Shown here piece by piece: positions 7,146 through 14,981 of a stretch of DNA of 64,000 nucleotides. This stretch comes from Tistrella mobilis (GTDB lineage Bacteria; Pseudomonadota; Alphaproteobacteria; Tistrellales; Tistrellaceae), in assembly GCF_039634785.1 (NCBI RefSeq), contig NZ_JBBIAB010000011.1, positions 124,001-188,000 of the forward strand. Direction: 5' to 3'. A model generated the notes under the pieces. The model ran no database searches and had not been told where the DNA came from. It saw nothing but the letters and a program-made list of their open reading frames with translations. A program made the position numbers and the translations under genes. Position 1 is the first letter of the stretch. The number at the start of each line of letters is the position of its first letter.

Positions 7146-7234
7146 GACGAATCGGGAAGACGGACGCCGCTTGCCATGCTGGGCGATGCCGAAGGTGCCG
7201 ACGGGGCGCCTTCCATCCCAGGAGCAAGAGGCCG

Positions 7235-8992
7235 ATGGCCATCTTCACCTATCAGACCGTCGCCGCGATGCAGCAGCCGCCTGTGGGGGCCCTGCCGAGC
7301 CCGGGCGACGTGGCGATCGTCGCCGGCTACCACATCTACGACGATGATGGCGGCGGCACCTTCCGTCTTGAAGTCCCGACCGGCCCGTATGCCGACAGGA
7401 TCGACGAGGGCATGGTCTTCGACTGCGTCAACTCCGACACCGATACCCGGATCGGGGTCTGGCGCCGGATCGATCAGGGGCCGGTGCGGACGGCCTGGTA
7501 CGGCATCGGCAATGTCAGGGCGAATGGCGCCACGACGGTGACGGTTTCCCAAACGGCGGCGCAGATCGAGCGGGCGATCAATGCCGCGGGATTCGGTGGT
7601 GTCGTCGTCTTCAGCGGAACGATCACGCTGGACCGTACCGTCCACATCCCGACAACCACTCAGCTGAAGGGGGAAGGCGAGGGCTGGGACCGGCCGCTGA
7701 TCAAGGCGGGGGAGAATCTCAAGGTCATGTTCACCCGCGCGTCATCCACGCGCATCTGGGTCACGGGCATCAGTTTCGAAGGCTGGATCGACGGCAACGC
7801 AGCCCTGCCGGCGGGAATCTCGACATCGGTGAACGGCTATGGGGCGCGGACCATCGGCTTCGTGCTCTGCAACACCACCAACCGGGCCGACCTGGACAGT
7901 GAGTTCGCCTTCTGTCGCTTCTACAACATGCGCATGGGCATTGTCGGCTTCGGCCGCAACTTCCTTGTGACCCGGACCCATTTCAGTTCGTGCCGCTATG
8001 GGATCGTGATCCATCCAGCGGCGGTGTCGACGACCACCGATGTCACGATCCGTGGGTTCAATTTCATCGCCAACCGTTTCCACGGATGTGGCGGTCCCCG
8101 GCAGCAGGCTGACGTGGTGCTGACATCCTCCGTGACCGCCCAGGACACGGGGCTCGGCCCGTTCGAGGTTGGTGACATCGTGGTCTATCGGGCAGGAACT
8201 GCTCCGACCGGCCTCAAGGACAACGTGCTCTATGTTGTCGGTGCGGACGGTGTTCTCTATGACCGGGCGTCGCCAAACATGTACATCATACAAGAAGAGA
8301 GCGAGGAGAACGAGGAAGAGAGCGATGAAACGCCGGAGCCGATTGATCCGCAGGCGATTACTCCTGAAGCCTGGGGCGCAGTTGCTCAGACGTTTCAGAC
8401 GGTGAGTGGTGGCGGCCTCTTCGACCGTTCGTCGACCTGCATCATGGTTGCAGGGCTGTCCGACGCCCTGAAGGGCGGGCTGATCGCCGACTGCTATGCC
8501 GATGATTGCCGCCGCTTCTATCACGGCCCGATGGGCGATATGCGGATCACCGGCGTGACAGGTTATCGGGGCTATGAAACGCTGGTCGAAACGGTGCCCG
8601 AAGGTACACCCACGGCGAGCAAGGCGATCAATGGTGCGATCACCAACTGCCAGTGGACCTGTGATCTGGCCAGCCCGACCACCTATCGGCATGGTCCCGC
8701 CATTCTGATCCATGGTTCGGGCGTCCAGGTCTCGAACAACCTCATCGCCAACTCTGTGGAGCATGGGCTTTATGTCCGGGCGGACGACTGCCAGGTGACT
8801 GGCAATATCGTGCGGCGTTCGGGAACTGCTGCGGCTCCCTTCCCCGGCATCCGGGTGACAGGCACCGGCTGTCTGATCGATGGCAATCTCATTGATGGCT
8901 ATGAAGGGGCCCCGGGGCTCGACCTGCCGTCGCCGACGACCAGCATGGTGGGCACGAACCGGATTGCCGCCTATCCAGCGGGCACTACCTGA
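7235..8992 (+). CDS. right-handed parallel beta-helix repeat protein
   Basis: Protein of 585 aa (start ATG 7235 chosen for the GGAG at 7221-7224, within the usual range upstream, and because upstream codons give an arginine/cysteine-rich stretch unlike a real N terminus). The short N-terminal module (FTYQTV to FRLEVPTG) resembles the head-binding/entry segment of tail-spike-like proteins. The remainder has pectate-lyase/NosD-like rungs rich in G, N and short beta repeats (for example NNLIANSVEHGLYVRADDCQ). No signal peptide is seen. An acidic, low-complexity insertion around residues 350-370 (EESEENEEESDETPEP) interrupts the helix. It may be a polysaccharide-binding or degrading protein; no catalytic residues could be assigned. 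Confidence 0.7.
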   Translation: MAIFTYQTVAAMQQPPVGALPSPGDVAIVAGYHIYDDDGGGTFRLEVPTGPYADRIDEGMVFDCVNSDTDTRIGVWRRIDQGPVRTAWYGIGNVRANGATTVTVSQTAAQIERAINAAGFGGVVVFSGTITLDRTVHIPTTTQLKGEGEGWDRPLIKAGENLKVMFTRASSTRIWVTGISFEGWIDGNAALPAGISTSVNGYGARTIGFVLCNTTNRADLDSEFAFCRFYNMRMGIVGFGRNFLVTRTHFSSCRYGIVIHPAAVSTTTDVTIRGFNFIANRFHGCGGPRQQADVVLTSSVTAQDTGLGPFEVGDIVVYRAGTAPTGLKDNVLYVVGADGVLYDRASPNMYIIQEESEENEEESDETPEPIDPQAITPEAWGAVAQTFQTVSGGGLFDRSSTCIMVAGLSDALKGGLIADCYADDCRRFYHGPMGDMRITGVTGYRGYETLVETVPEGTPTASKAINGAITNCQWTCDLASPTTYRHGPAILIHGSGVQVSNNLIANSVEHGLYVRADDCQVTGNIVRRSGTAAAPFPGIRVTGTGCLIDGNLIDGYEGAPGLDLPSPTTSMVGTNRIAAYPAGTT

Positions 8993-9027
8993 ACCCATCC
9001 GACCGATCGATGACATTCCCATTACGG

Positions 9028-9056
9028 TTGCACATGATAATTATGATTCTTTTATG
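9028..9056 (+). promoter_or_regulatory. possible promoter in an AT-rich leader
   Basis: The stretch at about 9015-9065 is clearly more AT-rich than its surroundings. TTGCAC (9028-9033) is spaced 17 bases from TTTATG (9051-9056), a weak sigma70-like pair upstream of the 16-codon ORF. Weak matches; the base-composition shift is the better evidence. Confidence 0.25.
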
Positions 9057-9141
9057 AGTTGAATGAGTCCGTCTCCCATGAAACCATGAAGTCGACCGGA
9101 TGGATGGGGTCCTCCGGTCTCTCAACCAAGGGAGACGTGTC

Positions 9142-9192
9142 ATGCAGAACCGTAAGAAGAACGCCGACTATCTCGGCAGCCTGCTGGGCTGA
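9142..9192 (+). CDS. 16-residue small ORF (leader peptide or peptide precursor candidate)
   Basis: A 16-codon ORF encodes MQNRKKNADYLGSLLG. It has a strong Shine-Dalgarno sequence (GGGAG at 9130-9134) seven bases before the ATG, which is unusual for a chance ORF. A basic N-terminal half (NRKKN) is followed by a hydrophobic end. A 13-bp perfect hairpin starts 38 bases after its stop, and the M29-like gene begins 122 bases after it. It could be a leader peptide controlling the downstream gene or a very short precursor peptide acted on by that gene's product. No homologue is recognised. Confidence 0.4.
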   Translation: MQNRKKNADYLGSLLG

Positions 9193-9230
9193 TCCAGCGG
9201 CCTTCTCATCCGTTGATTGACGGATGCGGG

Positions 9231-9270
9231 GTGGCGTGGTGCGCGCACGCAGCGTGTCGCACCACGCCAC
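9231..9270. other. 13-bp perfect inverted repeat (hairpin) before the M29-like gene
   Basis: GTGGCGTGGTGCG (9231-9243) and its exact complement CGCACCACGCCAC (9258-9270) enclose a 14-base loop that can itself pair (CACG/CGTG). There is no T-run after the second arm, so it is not a standard intrinsic terminator. It sits between the small ORF and the M29-like gene, 44 bases before the latter's start codon, as an attenuator or mRNA-processing structure would. Confidence 0.6.
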
Positions 9271-9314
9271 TTGATGAAGACTTGCATGTCATGTGATCAG
9301 GCAAGAGGTGGGCA

Positions 9315-10445
9315 ATGGACCGGATCATCATCGACCCGACCGCGATGCGGCAGTTCGGCGACCCGGAGGGCGCCACCTTCGTTTTCGTCACCAACCGGTC
9401 GGCAGCCGATCGTTTCGAGGTCCGGCTGGGGCGGGGTGGCGGTGGCTATGCCGGTGACATGACGCTGTTCTACGAGAAGGGGCAGTCCTTCTCCGAGCTT
9501 CTGGACCAGATGCCCGAGACGGCGCATATCCTGGTCATCTCTCCCGACGTCTATTACAAGTCGCCGCCGGCCGGCACGATCGGTGCCCGGCGCAAGCTTC
9601 TGGCGCTGGCCTGCAATTCGACGCCGACCGACATGGACAAGCTGGCCCACGGCATCCGGATGATCGAGGCGACCGACCCGGCCGCCCAGCAGGAGCTGGT
9701 CGATCGGTTCTTCGCGACGGCCGAGCAGTCGGCCTTCATGGAGATCGTCGATCCGCGCTACGGCACCCGCGCCCGCTTCGACCACATGTCGGACAAGTAT
9801 GTCTGGAACGAACAGGCCGGCTTCCTCGGCTGGGGAGAGCAGCAGCTGGCGCCGTCGGGCGAAGTCAGCGCCCTGCCGCTCGACGTCTATGATTACAGCG
9901 CCGATCTCTCGCTCGGCATCGACGGGCAGATGGTGATCGAGGGCTATCCGATCCTGCACAACGGCGCCCCCAGCTATCATCCGGCCGATCAGGCGCGGAT
10001 CCACAGCCGGCTGGCGGCCATGCAGCGCGGGCCGATGCTCGCCACCATCGAACGCGGCCATATCGTCCGGCTCGAAGCCCTGGCGCCCGAAGCGACGCCG
10101 GCGGTGGAGATGCTGGAGCGGATGTTCGATGTCGACAGCCGCTACCGGATCATGTGGGAGTTCGGCTTCGCGGTGAACTGCACGCTGGAACTGTATGACG
10201 CCAACACCGCGATCAACGAACTCTATGGCGGTCAGACCGGCACCATTCATATCGGCCTGGGGCTGACACCGCACACCCAGTATCATCTGGACATCGTCTG
10301 CCCGGCGACCACGATTCTGGGCGATCGCGGCCAGCATATCTTCGGGCCGCGTGCGGAAGAGATCATCGCAGGCACCGCCGCCACCGGCCGCGCGGGGTCT
10401 CTGGTCCGCATCCGCAGCGCCGCCTGCGGCTGCGTCGCCGCCTGA
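9315..10445 (+). CDS. M29 aminopeptidase / NicX-like putative metalloenzyme
   Basis: Protein of 376 aa with AGAGGTGGG just before its ATG. The C-terminal half carries a pattern like that of M29 aminopeptidases and the related ring-opening dioxygenase NicX: an LEA glutamate (about residue 257), a glutamate in WEFGFAVN (about 285), a histidine in GTIHIGLG (about 315) and an HLD pair in YHLDIV (about 328-330). Established family ligands are Glu, Glu, His and an HxD pair. The E-to-H distance of 30 fits, but the H-to-HxD gap of only 13 residues is much shorter than in M29 enzymes. The N-terminal half is not recognised. The C terminus ends in a Cys-Gly-Cys motif (AACGCVAA). Function is inferred only. 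Confidence 0.5.
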   Translation: MDRIIIDPTAMRQFGDPEGATFVFVTNRSAADRFEVRLGRGGGGYAGDMTLFYEKGQSFSELLDQMPETAHILVISPDVYYKSPPAGTIGARRKLLALACNSTPTDMDKLAHGIRMIEATDPAAQQELVDRFFATAEQSAFMEIVDPRYGTRARFDHMSDKYVWNEQAGFLGWGEQQLAPSGEVSALPLDVYDYSADLSLGIDGQMVIEGYPILHNGAPSYHPADQARIHSRLAAMQRGPMLATIERGHIVRLEALAPEATPAVEMLERMFDVDSRYRIMWEFGFAVNCTLELYDANTAINELYGGQTGTIHIGLGLTPHTQYHLDIVCPATTILGDRGQHIFGPRAEEIIAGTAATGRAGSLVRIRSAACGCVAA

Positions 10446-10463
10446 CCGGCGACGCCTGCGGCG

Positions 10464-11756
10464 TCACCTGCCGCGGAGCATGTCTTCTATCGCCAGCATG
10501 GCCGCATGCGCGCCGTCTTCGGCGCGCAGCCTGCGGCCGATCCGGCGGGCGGTGTCGGTCAGCGGGCCGTGGCGGAGCGCGCGGCGGATCGTGCGGCCAA
10601 GCCGGTCGCCGGTGCCCAGCCCCCCCGCCGCCAGCTGGCGCAGCCCGGGCCCGCGCAGGCCATAGCCGCCGTCCACGGCCCGGGCCGCCCAGAAGGGCTG
10701 ATCGGCGCCCCAGGGGCAGATCACCGCGGCGCGGCCGGCCATCAGCCCGCTCGCCAGCGTGCCCACCCCGCCGTGATGAACCACCAGATCGACATGCGGG
10801 AAGACCCGGGCATGGGGCATGCGGTCCAGCACCAGCACCCGGTCGCCGGCCAGGCGGTCCAGCGCCCGGCCGTCGATCCCGCCCCAGCCGGTGGTGACCA
10901 GCGCCGCCACGTCGGCGCGCTCGATCGCGCGGGCCAGAGAGCGTGCGACGCCGTTGCCGTCCACCCCGCTCATGCTGCCGAACCCGATATGGATCAGCGG
11001 CCGCCTGCGGGCGGTTGCGCGGGTGGCGAAGGCCGCCGCCTCGATCGGCAGGCCGGTATCGGCCGCCGCATCGTTTTCCGCACGCCAGAAGCCGGTGGTT
11101 GCGACCTCGGGCCCCCAGTCGTCGATGCGCGGCAGCAGGGCCGCGGAAAAGGCGTTGAGCACCAGCCGGGCCGCGGGCGGCGGTGCCTTGCGCCTGGGGG
11201 GCAGGCCCAGGCTTTCCGCCCGCCAGCGATCGGTGCGGCCGGCCAGCGGCCGGGCGAGCAGGGGGGTGAGGCAATAGCTGGCCCGGTTCGCCCAGGGGCC
11301 CATGTCGCGGGCGAACAGGGCGGCATTGGGCACCACGGCGGTGGGGGCGATGCAGGGCAGCAGCGCCACCTGCGCCCAGGGCACTTGCAGCGTCTGGGCC
11401 AGATCGGCGGCGCCGGTATATTTCGGATGGGCGATGATCGCGTCGGGCCGGAAGCTACGTCCGCGGGCGGTGGTCTCGAACAGCGCGTCGACAACGCGGG
11501 TCAGCGTGCCCGCCCGGGTCAGCCGGTCGATCAGCCCGGGCAGGCCGGCGGCATGGGCTTGCCCCTGCCGGGCCATGTCGCGGAAATCGATGGCGAGTTT
11601 CAGATGCTGCGCGCCGCTTTCGGCGACCATCTCCGCATCGCCTGCGGGGGCGGCCAGCCCCACCTCGTGACCGCGTGCCACCAGCCGCGCCGCCAGATTG
11701 ACGAAGGGGCGGACATCCCCCTCGGTTCCGGCGGTGAGCAGCAGCAGGCGGGCCAT
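10464..11756 (-). CDS. UDP-glycosyltransferase, GT1/MGT family
   Basis: Glycosyltransferase of 430 aa (GT-B fold, YjiC/macrolide glycosyltransferase type). The ATG at 11756 is chosen because it begins the family N terminus MARLLLLTAGTEGDVRPF; an upstream in-frame start would give an Arg-rich extension overlapping recR. The nucleotide-sugar binding signature is present near the C terminus (VVHHGGVGTLASGLMAGR, then WGADQPFWAARA). Such enzymes glycosylate lipids, carotenoids or polyketides; the acceptor is unknown. It starts 16 bases after the recR stop, so it is probably cotranscribed, although the two have no obvious shared function. Confidence 0.85.
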   Translation of the reverse strand: MARLLLLTAGTEGDVRPFVNLAARLVARGHEVGLAAPAGDAEMVAESGAQHLKLAIDFRDMARQGQAHAAGLPGLIDRLTRAGTLTRVVDALFETTARGRSFRPDAIIAHPKYTGAADLAQTLQVPWAQVALLPCIAPTAVVPNAALFARDMGPWANRASYCLTPLLARPLAGRTDRWRAESLGLPPRRKAPPPAARLVLNAFSAALLPRIDDWGPEVATTGFWRAENDAAADTGLPIEAAAFATRATARRRPLIHIGFGSMSGVDGNGVARSLARAIERADVAALVTTGWGGIDGRALDRLAGDRVLVLDRMPHARVFPHVDLVVHHGGVGTLASGLMAGRAAVICPWGADQPFWAARAVDGGYGLRGPGLRQLAAGGLGTGDRLGRTIRRALRHGPLTDTARRIGRRLRAEDGAHAAMLAIEDMLRGR

Positions 11757-11772
11757 CGGCGCGGGCGTTCCC

Positions 11773-12372
11773 TCAGACCGGCCGGCGCGCCTTGAGCGCC
11801 GCCTGAATGGTGCCGTCATCCATATAGTCGAGCGCGCCGCCCACCGGCATGCCATGGGCCAGGCGGGTGATGTTGGCCTCGGGCGCCGCCTCCGCCAGCC
11901 GGTCGGCGATGTAATGGGCGGTGGTCTGGCCGTCGACGGTGGCGGGCAGGGCCATCACCACCTCGGTGATGCCGCCCTCCGCCACCCGGGCGGCCAGCCT
12001 TGGGATGCCCAGCTCGTCCGGGCCGATGCCGTCGAGGGCCGAGAGCGTGCCGCCCAGCACGTGATACCGGCCCCGGAAGGCGCCGGCCCGCTCCATCGCC
12101 CACAGATCCGCCACCTGTTCCACCACGCAGAGCTGGGCCGGGTCGCGCCGCTCGTCCGCGCAGACCCCGCAGGGGTCGCGGGCATCCAGATTGCCGCAGA
12201 TCGTGCAGCTTTTGACCTCGGCCGCCGCCTTGGCCAGCGCATCGGCCAGCGGCATCATCAGCGCCTCGCGCCGCCTCAACAGGGTCAGTGCCGCGCGCCT
12301 GGCCGAGCGCGGGCCCAGCCCCGGCAGGCGGGCGAGCAGGGTCACGAGCTTCTCGATCTCGGGTGCGGCCAT
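11773..12372 (-). CDS. recR: recombination protein RecR
   Basis: RecFOR pathway protein of 199 aa. It shows the N-terminal helix-hairpin-helix ([15 protein letters not shown]), the four-cysteine zinc finger ([16 protein letters not shown]) and the Toprim domain ([13 protein letters not shown]). It usually follows dnaX-ybaB directly; here dnaX-ybaB lies about 4 kb upstream on the same strand with other genes between. Confidence 0.97.
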
Positions 12373-13863: not shown

Positions 13864-14637
13864 GTGACTTCAGATCGCGTCGCTGACCGCGTCGTTCCGG
13901 CCGGACAAGGGGGGCGCCGTCATGTTCTGGCCCGGACATGGCCCGTGGGGCTTGCCCTCATGCCGGTGGGGCTGCTGTTCGGGGTTCTGGCCGGTGCACA
14001 GGGCTGGGCTGCGTCGGAGATCCTGGCGGTGAGCCTGATCGGGTTTACGGGGAGCGGACAGTTCATCTGGCTGCGGATCGCCGGCGAGGGCGGCGGGCCG
14101 GTTGCGGCCTTTGCCGTCATCCTGCTGATCAATCTGCGGTATCTGCCGATGATCCTGACGGTGTCGGCGCCGTTTCGCGGTCAGGGGCCGCTCAAGGGCC
14201 TGGCGGCGCATATGGTCTCGGACGAATCCTATGCCGTGGAAGGGCCCGGCGACGACCGCCCGGCGCGGTGGGCGATCCGGGCCGGCATTTTCCTGACCTG
14301 GGCAGCCTCGACCACCGCAGGCGGGTTGCTGCTGCCGGTGATCGCCGGCAGCCGGGCGGCCGAAACCCTGGCTCTGCTCGCCTTCTTTCCGGCCAGCCTG
14401 CTGCTGTTCACCCTGTCGGTTCTGCGCCTTGAAGCGGCCGCACGCACGGCCACCGGCCGGCTGGCGACCCGCATGGTGACGACGATCGCGGCCGCGGCGG
14501 CGCTGGTGCTCGTGCTCTATCTGGTGCTCGGCCCGCAATGGTTCTGGCTGCCGGGCATTCTGGCCGCCGCGGTTCTGGTCGACCGGTTCGCCTTTCCAAC
14601 GACGGCCAGTCCGAACGACGGATCGGGAGGCGCGTGA
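13864..14637 (+). CDS. azlC: AzlC family branched-chain amino acid exporter, large subunit
   Basis: Membrane protein of 257 aa that together with AzlD exports branched-chain amino acids or analogues (BrnFE type). The N-terminal GLALMPVGLLFGVLAGAQGW and the motif around GQFIWLRIAG match the family; at least five membrane helices are visible. The start is the GTG at 13864, preceded by GGAGGAGGC. Its TGA overlaps the azlD ATG by one base. Confidence 0.9.
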   Translation: MTSDRVADRVVPAGQGGRRHVLARTWPVGLALMPVGLLFGVLAGAQGWAASEILAVSLIGFTGSGQFIWLRIAGEGGGPVAAFAVILLINLRYLPMILTVSAPFRGQGPLKGLAAHMVSDESYAVEGPGDDRPARWAIRAGIFLTWAASTTAGGLLLPVIAGSRAAETLALLAFFPASLLLFTLSVLRLEAAARTATGRLATRMVTTIAAAAALVLVLYLVLGPQWFWLPGILAAAVLVDRFAFPTTASPNDGSGGA

Positions 14638-14981
14638 TGACCGACGGATCAGAGCTTGTGCAGATGTGGGGGGTGCCGCTTACCGGCATGATCCTGCTTG
14701 GCCTGGTGTCGGTGCTGGTGCGGGTGCTGCCTGCCTATCTGCCGTTGCCGACATCGCCGGCGACGCGGCGGCGGATCGAGGTGGTGCTGCCGGTCGCCGT
14801 TTTCGTGAACCTTGCCGTCTATTGTGCAGCCGGAGAGATCGGCACGGCGGCATGGCCGGCGATTGCCGGTTTTGCCGCCCTGGCCGCGCTGTTTCCGCTG
14901 CGTCGGCGCCTTCCCTTTATCGTGCTGGTTCTGATTCCGAGCGGGGTTTATGTGGTGGTGCTGCGCCTGGCGGAGGGGTGA
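14637..14981 (+). CDS. azlD: AzlD domain protein, small subunit of branched-chain amino acid exporter
   Basis: Membrane protein of 114 aa with four hydrophobic segments, the small partner of AzlC. The ATG at 14637 overlaps the azlC stop (TGATG), a translationally coupled junction that fixes the start. The conserved RVLPAYLP segment is present at about residues 26-33. It ends 6 bases before the convergent VOC gene. Confidence 0.9.
   Translation: MTDGSELVQMWGVPLTGMILLGLVSVLVRVLPAYLPLPTSPATRRRIEVVLPVAVFVNLAVYCAAGEIGTAAWPAIAGFAALAALFPLRRRLPFIVLVLIPSGVYVVVLRLAEG

Follow-up and report, generated by a model that had tools for sequence, protein, structure and literature searches.

A 16-codon gene beside a CgnB/CgnE-like protein gene in Tistrella mobilis: a probable minimal RiPP-type locus with relatives in Proteobacteria and Cyanobacteria

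CgnB and CgnE, from the crocagin system of Chondromyces crocatus described by Adam et al. in 2023, are M29-like proteins without a Pfam family that bind CgnA, the 21-residue precursor of the RiPP crocagin (PMC10070186). CgnB carries a dinuclear zinc site (E161, E252, E274, H280, H291 and D293) whose metal is proposed to drive an elimination at the hydroxylated core Tyr of CgnA, and no aminopeptidase activity was seen for either protein (PMC10070186). A range of 21-42% identity is reported for the family. Genomes with a single copy have intact ligands and, where copies are paired, the second one always has a damaged site (PMC10070186). Crocagin-like clusters, except crocagin's own, carry a glycosyltransferase (PMC10070186). 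In the same paper single-copy loci were mined with RiPPER, and all two-copy clusters had candidate precursors with a conserved Tyr-Trp end (PMC10070186). RiPPER looks for ORFs of 20-120 aa (PMC6511847). A literature search, with most subscription papers and preprints outside its coverage, found CgnB/CgnE treated in depth by PMC10070186 alone.

The locus described here lies in a 64,000-nucleotide stretch of Tistrella mobilis DNA (the window), in a region with the following features:

7226..8992, + strand: right-handed beta-helix protein (Pfam PF13229), in the rmuC-recR island, whose limits come from synteny
9128..9134, + strand: Shine-Dalgarno AAGGGAG of the 16-codon ORF, read from the sequence
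9142..9192, + strand: 16-codon ORF, precursor-like peptide gene, MQNRKKNADYLGSLLG (ATG at 9142, TGA at 9190-9192)
9231..9270, + strand: perfect hairpin with a 13-bp stem (arms 9231-9243 and 9258-9270, 14-nt loop), from sequence and folding
9304..9310, + strand: Shine-Dalgarno AGAGGTG of the 376-aa gene, read from the sequence
9315..10445, + strand: 376-aa CgnB/CgnE-like (M29/NicX fold) protein with a six-ligand dinuclear metal-site pattern and a C-terminal CxC tail, from the modelled fold and alignment
10464..11756, - strand: MGT/GT28-like glycosyltransferase, convergent, in the same island, from family search and synteny

The elements listed in the first-pass annotation, namely the small ORF with its Shine-Dalgarno, the 13-bp stem that begins 38 nt past the stop and the second gene with its own ribosome site, are all present in the sequence. 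An in-frame ATG upstream would give a peptide of 30 aa. The 16-codon start is preferred because this length is common to all close relatives and a Shine-Dalgarno is present. T. mobilis KA081020-065 and a further Tistrella genome share this arrangement, with 98% protein identity. In related Alphaproteobacteria rmuC and recR directly adjoin each other; in Tistrella, synteny places between them an island of about 4.6 kb that carries the genes for the beta-helix protein, the 376-aa protein and the glycosyltransferase, together with the 16-codon ORF. The beta-helix protein may be part of the peptide/376-aa system, and the glycosyltransferase is a possible tailoring enzyme. The beta-helix protein shows 84% identity to its counterpart in a second Tistrella genome (G001), compared to mostly 95-99% for the neighbouring proteins, a faster divergence between Tistrella genomes.

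We consider it probable that this is a minimal RiPP-type locus, in which a 16-aa precursor is served by a CgnB/CgnE-type binding or processing protein. The 376-aa protein has few homologues, more than 1,500 searched genomes having yielded a handful, and viral contigs contained no relative of either the protein or the peptide. A 16-codon ORF lies upstream of the homologue in Paraburkholderia largidicola (MKNRKKNAEYLGTLLG), in Sessilibacter corallicola (MKKRNRNGQYTGSLLG) and, with one and the same sequence (MKNRKKNGQYTGSLLG), in Nostoc linckia, Nostoc sp. ATCC 43529 and Mastigocoleus testarum. Another (MKKIRKNSRYLGTLLG) stands upstream of the homologue in L038, a GC-rich contig of a genome from the cyanobacterial set, and a diverged 16-mer (MIRRTNSRLYGETLGY) occupies the same place in L050, an alphaproteobacterium of another family. 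The L038 contig (G630:C147) looks proteobacterial, and contamination of a cyanobacterial assembly is possible. Linkage of the ORF to the gene is observed in five sequence variants, in alpha-, beta- and gammaproteobacteria and in Cyanobacteria. When eight genomes or records were searched with a degenerate 16-codon pattern, it matched 18 times, always at these loci, and its reversed control gave 0. In Nostoc, Sessilibacter, L038 and L050, too, the ORF has a GGAG-type ribosome site before it. The absence of the small frame or of the hairpin beside orthologues had been named at the outset as what would speak against the locus; conservation was found instead, and the idea of a very small peptide precursor beside a partner protein is supported.

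Tyr10 is kept in every 16-mer, and the C-terminus reads YxG[ST]LLG. Codon changes fall mostly at third positions in most pairs of these ORFs (7 third-position differences and 3 at other positions between Tistrella and Paraburkholderia); the Tistrella-L038 pair has no third-position bias (5, 5, 5). The coding constraint is also visible in the tandem arrays of the Cyanobacteria. Nostoc linckia z4 carries seven head-to-tail copies with a unit of 124-125 bp, each ATG being preceded by AAAGGAGT, Nostoc sp. ATCC 43529 carries five copies and Mastigocoleus two. Each copy in the Nostoc arrays has its own ribosome site. The 14 array copies, from two Nostoc and one Mastigocoleus, comprise ten DNA sequences that encode one amino-acid sequence; each of their nine variable columns is a third position, and all the variation is synonymous (naive p of about 1e-6). 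The presence of the same 16-codon ORF by the gene, the exclusively synonymous change within arrays and the ribosome site of each Nostoc array copy argue for the RiPP-type reading. The 16-mer would then be a ribosomal precursor, translated from its own gene, in which the basic N-terminal half QNRKKN may serve for recognition and the C-terminal YLGSLLG is probably the modified part.

The gene neighbourhoods vary. The Nostoc homologues have thioesterase, A-PCP, PhyH and class V aminotransferase genes as neighbours, Sessilibacter has class V aminotransferase and MFS genes, and L038 has genes for a haem-oxygenase-like protein, a methyltransferase and an MFS protein. Genes of iron-oxygenase families, possible counterparts of the 2-oxoglutarate dioxygenase CgnC, occur nearby in Nostoc (PhyH), L051 (Cupin_8) and Streptomyces (TauD). 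Downstream of the array in L003, the thioesterase, A-PCP, PhyH and class V aminotransferase genes span 7154-12154, which suggests a mixed ribosomal/nonribosomal pathway. In Paraburkholderia, AzlC directly follows the homologue of the 376-aa gene and is itself followed by an AzlD-like gene. AzlCD of the window (13864-14981) was for this reason weighed as an exporter for the Tistrella locus and then dropped, since the genes were not found at the matching place of KA081020-065 or G001. The copies of Tistrella, Paraburkholderia and L050 have neither a recognised oxygenase gene nor a recognised protease gene beside them, and this counts against the RiPP-type reading.

These neighbourhoods are relevant to the strongest competing explanation, in which the peptide is no substrate. 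It would instead assist the M29-like enzyme as a small partner subunit or as its activator, or serve as a carrier scaffold that is used repeatedly, and the product would have another source. That the sequence is nearly invariant across phyla suits a binding partner, the amino-acid metabolism genes at several loci (class V aminotransferase, A-PCP, thioesterase, PhyH) could be the source of a small molecule, and the position of AzlC in Paraburkholderia also agrees with this. We nevertheless judge it unlikely. Up to seven gene copies point to stoichiometric consumption of the peptide, and the small peptide of the nearest studied system is a precursor (PMC10070186). A carrier peptide is known from the tmo cluster of Tistrella mobilis, where PEARL/pearlin (PMC9303977) resembles the present case in the use of a ribosomal peptide in small-molecule making and in the genus concerned; however, the annotated neighbours at the loci studied here include no recognisable PEARL or radical-SAM gene.

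The RiPP-type reading assigns the 376-aa protein to the kind of CgnB and CgnE. It belongs to no Pfam or NCBIfam family, eight homologues (set A1) gave nothing credible in either collection, and a PDB sequence search (phmmer with single proteins, and profiles) returned no match, CgnB/CgnE included. AlphaFold models, with pLDDT 66 for the window protein and 79 for a Nostoc copy, were compared by Foldseek and VIA. The window protein reaches VIA Z 15.7 to CgnB and 15.4 to CgnE; the Nostoc copy reaches 20.7 to CgnB (287 residues, 3.5 A) and 20.6 to CgnE. NicX (7cn3/7cup) gives Z 13.5 with the window protein and 18.9 with the Nostoc copy, within about 2 Z units of CgnB/CgnE, and the M29 aminopeptidases AmpS, AmpT and PepS give Z 10-14. 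CgnB/CgnE come first or among the first by both Foldseek and VIA; for the Nostoc model NicX is top by Foldseek E-value. Identity to CgnB/CgnE in the VIA structural alignments is 13-17%. The protein is best read, from its modelled fold, as a CgnB/CgnE relative rather than as an aminopeptidase or NicX, which corrects the identity first given to it. That the link is one of fold only, with NicX near in Z and at the top by Foldseek E-value for Nostoc, counts against the RiPP-type reading.

The peptidase-like metal-site pattern reported in the first-pass annotation holds: it is of M29 type and consists of E183, E282, E302, H312, H324 and D326. These positions were equated with those of CgnB by order, similar spacing and aligned ends, not by coordinates. 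All six are kept in 13/14 homologues, including every single-copy homologue aligned, and the intact pattern suggests that the dinuclear site is occupied by metal. Only the tailed copy of L038 departs from the pattern (H324A and D326I), and it resembles the situation of CgnE. Some clusters carry a pair of homologues, as with CgnB/CgnE. A tree of the homologues gave no clear history for the paired copies; it groups the Tistrella and Paraburkholderia proteins with moderate support (91/96). In each of the eight clusters that form the main group, one copy and no other bears a C-terminal CxC tail (CPC or CGC); second copies lack it, as do the distant Streptomyces and G1555 proteins. In Tistrella it is coded at about 10415-10442, and further homologues that carry it are those of L003, L004, L005, L008, L038, L050 and L051.

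The CgnB/CgnE fold, the retained ligand positions, the homologue pairs and a basic, Tyr-bearing precursor like CgnA all argue for the RiPP-type reading. The 376-aa protein would hold the peptide and probably act on or around the conserved Tyr10. A true M29 aminopeptidase or NicX-like dioxygenase acting on a peptide signal or inhibitor shares the fold superfamily, and the six dinuclear-site positions are kept, but this explanation is decidedly improbable. CgnB/CgnE score at least as high in Z, and CgnB and CgnE themselves have this fold without aminopeptidase activity. Moreover, one would expect divergence in an exported signal, whereas the peptide is almost invariant. Beyond the shared fold, NicX (2,5-dihydroxypyridine dioxygenase) acts on a small ring compound, whereas the protein studied here retains all six dinuclear ligand positions and has a linked peptide gene. 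The M29 aminopeptidases have the fold and the metal-site pattern in common with the 376-aa protein; it is shorter, gives lower Z with them and has a linked peptide gene.

A hairpin follows the precursor ORF in 6/6 folded single-precursor loci, which also favours the RiPP-type reading. The perfect stems measure 13 bp in Tistrella, 8 in Paraburkholderia, 10 in Sessilibacter, 11 in L038, 10 in L050 and 12 in Streptomyces. At each of the six loci the observed stem is matched by at most 1% of shuffles, and 0/500 mononucleotide shuffles of the 122-nt Tistrella spacer reach a stem of at least 13 bp. The hairpin is kept in position, without sequence relation between loci. In Sessilibacter a T run follows it, with shorter ones in L050 and Paraburkholderia, which is the layout of an intrinsic terminator; no T run stands behind the Tistrella hairpin. 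No stem of at least 6 perfect pairs was found in Nostoc between two array copies or from array to gene. The 16-bp stem present in Mastigocoleus lies a long way downstream of the last precursor copy. An Rfam scan of the window and five related loci assigned neither the hairpin nor the cyanobacterial arrays to an RNA family. In the simplest reading the hairpin is probably a partial terminator or an mRNA stabiliser that raises the precursor:enzyme ratio: most transcripts would end after the precursor, or the message would be stabilised. The Cyanobacteria may reach the same excess through their 2-7 tandem precursor genes. The earlier alternative of a leader peptide with an attenuator hairpin controlling the 376-aa gene, despite the small ORF, the hairpin, the gene order and the T runs in Sessilibacter and L050, is essentially excluded by amino-acid-level conservation with free synonymous change, the same peptide in different phyla, the lack of a run of regulatory codons, and arrays of 5-7 tandem ORFs (no comparable stem between them) with their own ribosome sites.

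Compared to crocagin, the RiPP-type loci described here share an M29-like protein without Pfam family and with the E-E-E-H-H-D pattern, a very small basic precursor with a key Tyr (CgnA 21 aa, 16 aa here), single or paired protein copies, and oxygenase, methyltransferase or MFS genes near several loci. However, the 16-mer ends in YxG[ST]LLG without Trp, so that the Tyr-Trp end of crocagin-like precursors is missing, and a C-terminus wholly unlike that of crocagin counts against the RiPP-type reading. The pairs of Nostoc, Mastigocoleus and Sessilibacter retain all six ligands in each copy, unlike the known pairs with their damaged second copy. Tandem precursor arrays and nearby class V aminotransferase and NRPS A-PCP genes are further differences, and no CgnD-like protease was identified at the present loci. 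The statement that no known RiPP family is recognised needs qualification: CgnB/CgnE is a recognised RiPP protein family, and the branch itself appears undescribed. It is a new branch of CgnB/CgnE-type systems because its loci fit neither the RiPPER set of at least 20 aa nor the Tyr-Trp two-copy set, as these are described in PMC10070186. The Nostoc peptide sequence occurs in no text of the searched literature, most subscription papers and preprint servers lying outside its coverage.

The 20-residue floor of RiPPER (PMC6511847) makes loci with 16-aa precursors invisible. In the literature found, the CgnB/CgnE family has one worked-out pathway, and the loci described here represent a second precursor lineage of different composition. 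A near-invariant peptide across phyla suggests a conserved product, not a fast-diverging toxin or signal. It is conceivable, though we hold it with somewhat less than even confidence, that the loci form a widespread undescribed RiPP class with precursors among the shortest (16 aa), in which one CgnB-fold metalloprotein turns a near-invariant peptide into a conserved small molecule; on this reading the gene dosage given by the tandem arrays suggests a large demand for the molecule, as with a cofactor, metallophore or signal. The minimal two-gene loci are easily rebuilt in E. coli, and the role of a lone metal-bearing CgnB-like protein is thus directly testable.

Longer precursor-like ORFs lie just upstream of the distant homologues, with 40 aa in Streptomyces (...KYGKYDRLEG) and 55 aa in the cyanobacterial G1555 (...RYTQYDNLQG). 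Both have a related YxxLxG end. These ends, together with the iron-oxygenase-family and haem-oxygenase-like genes near relatives, argue for the RiPP-type reading. At L051 (6085-8649), a distant homologue lies beside a Cupin_8/JmjC protein, and the 51-aa ORF between them, ending in HSWCDTIA, is possibly another precursor type.
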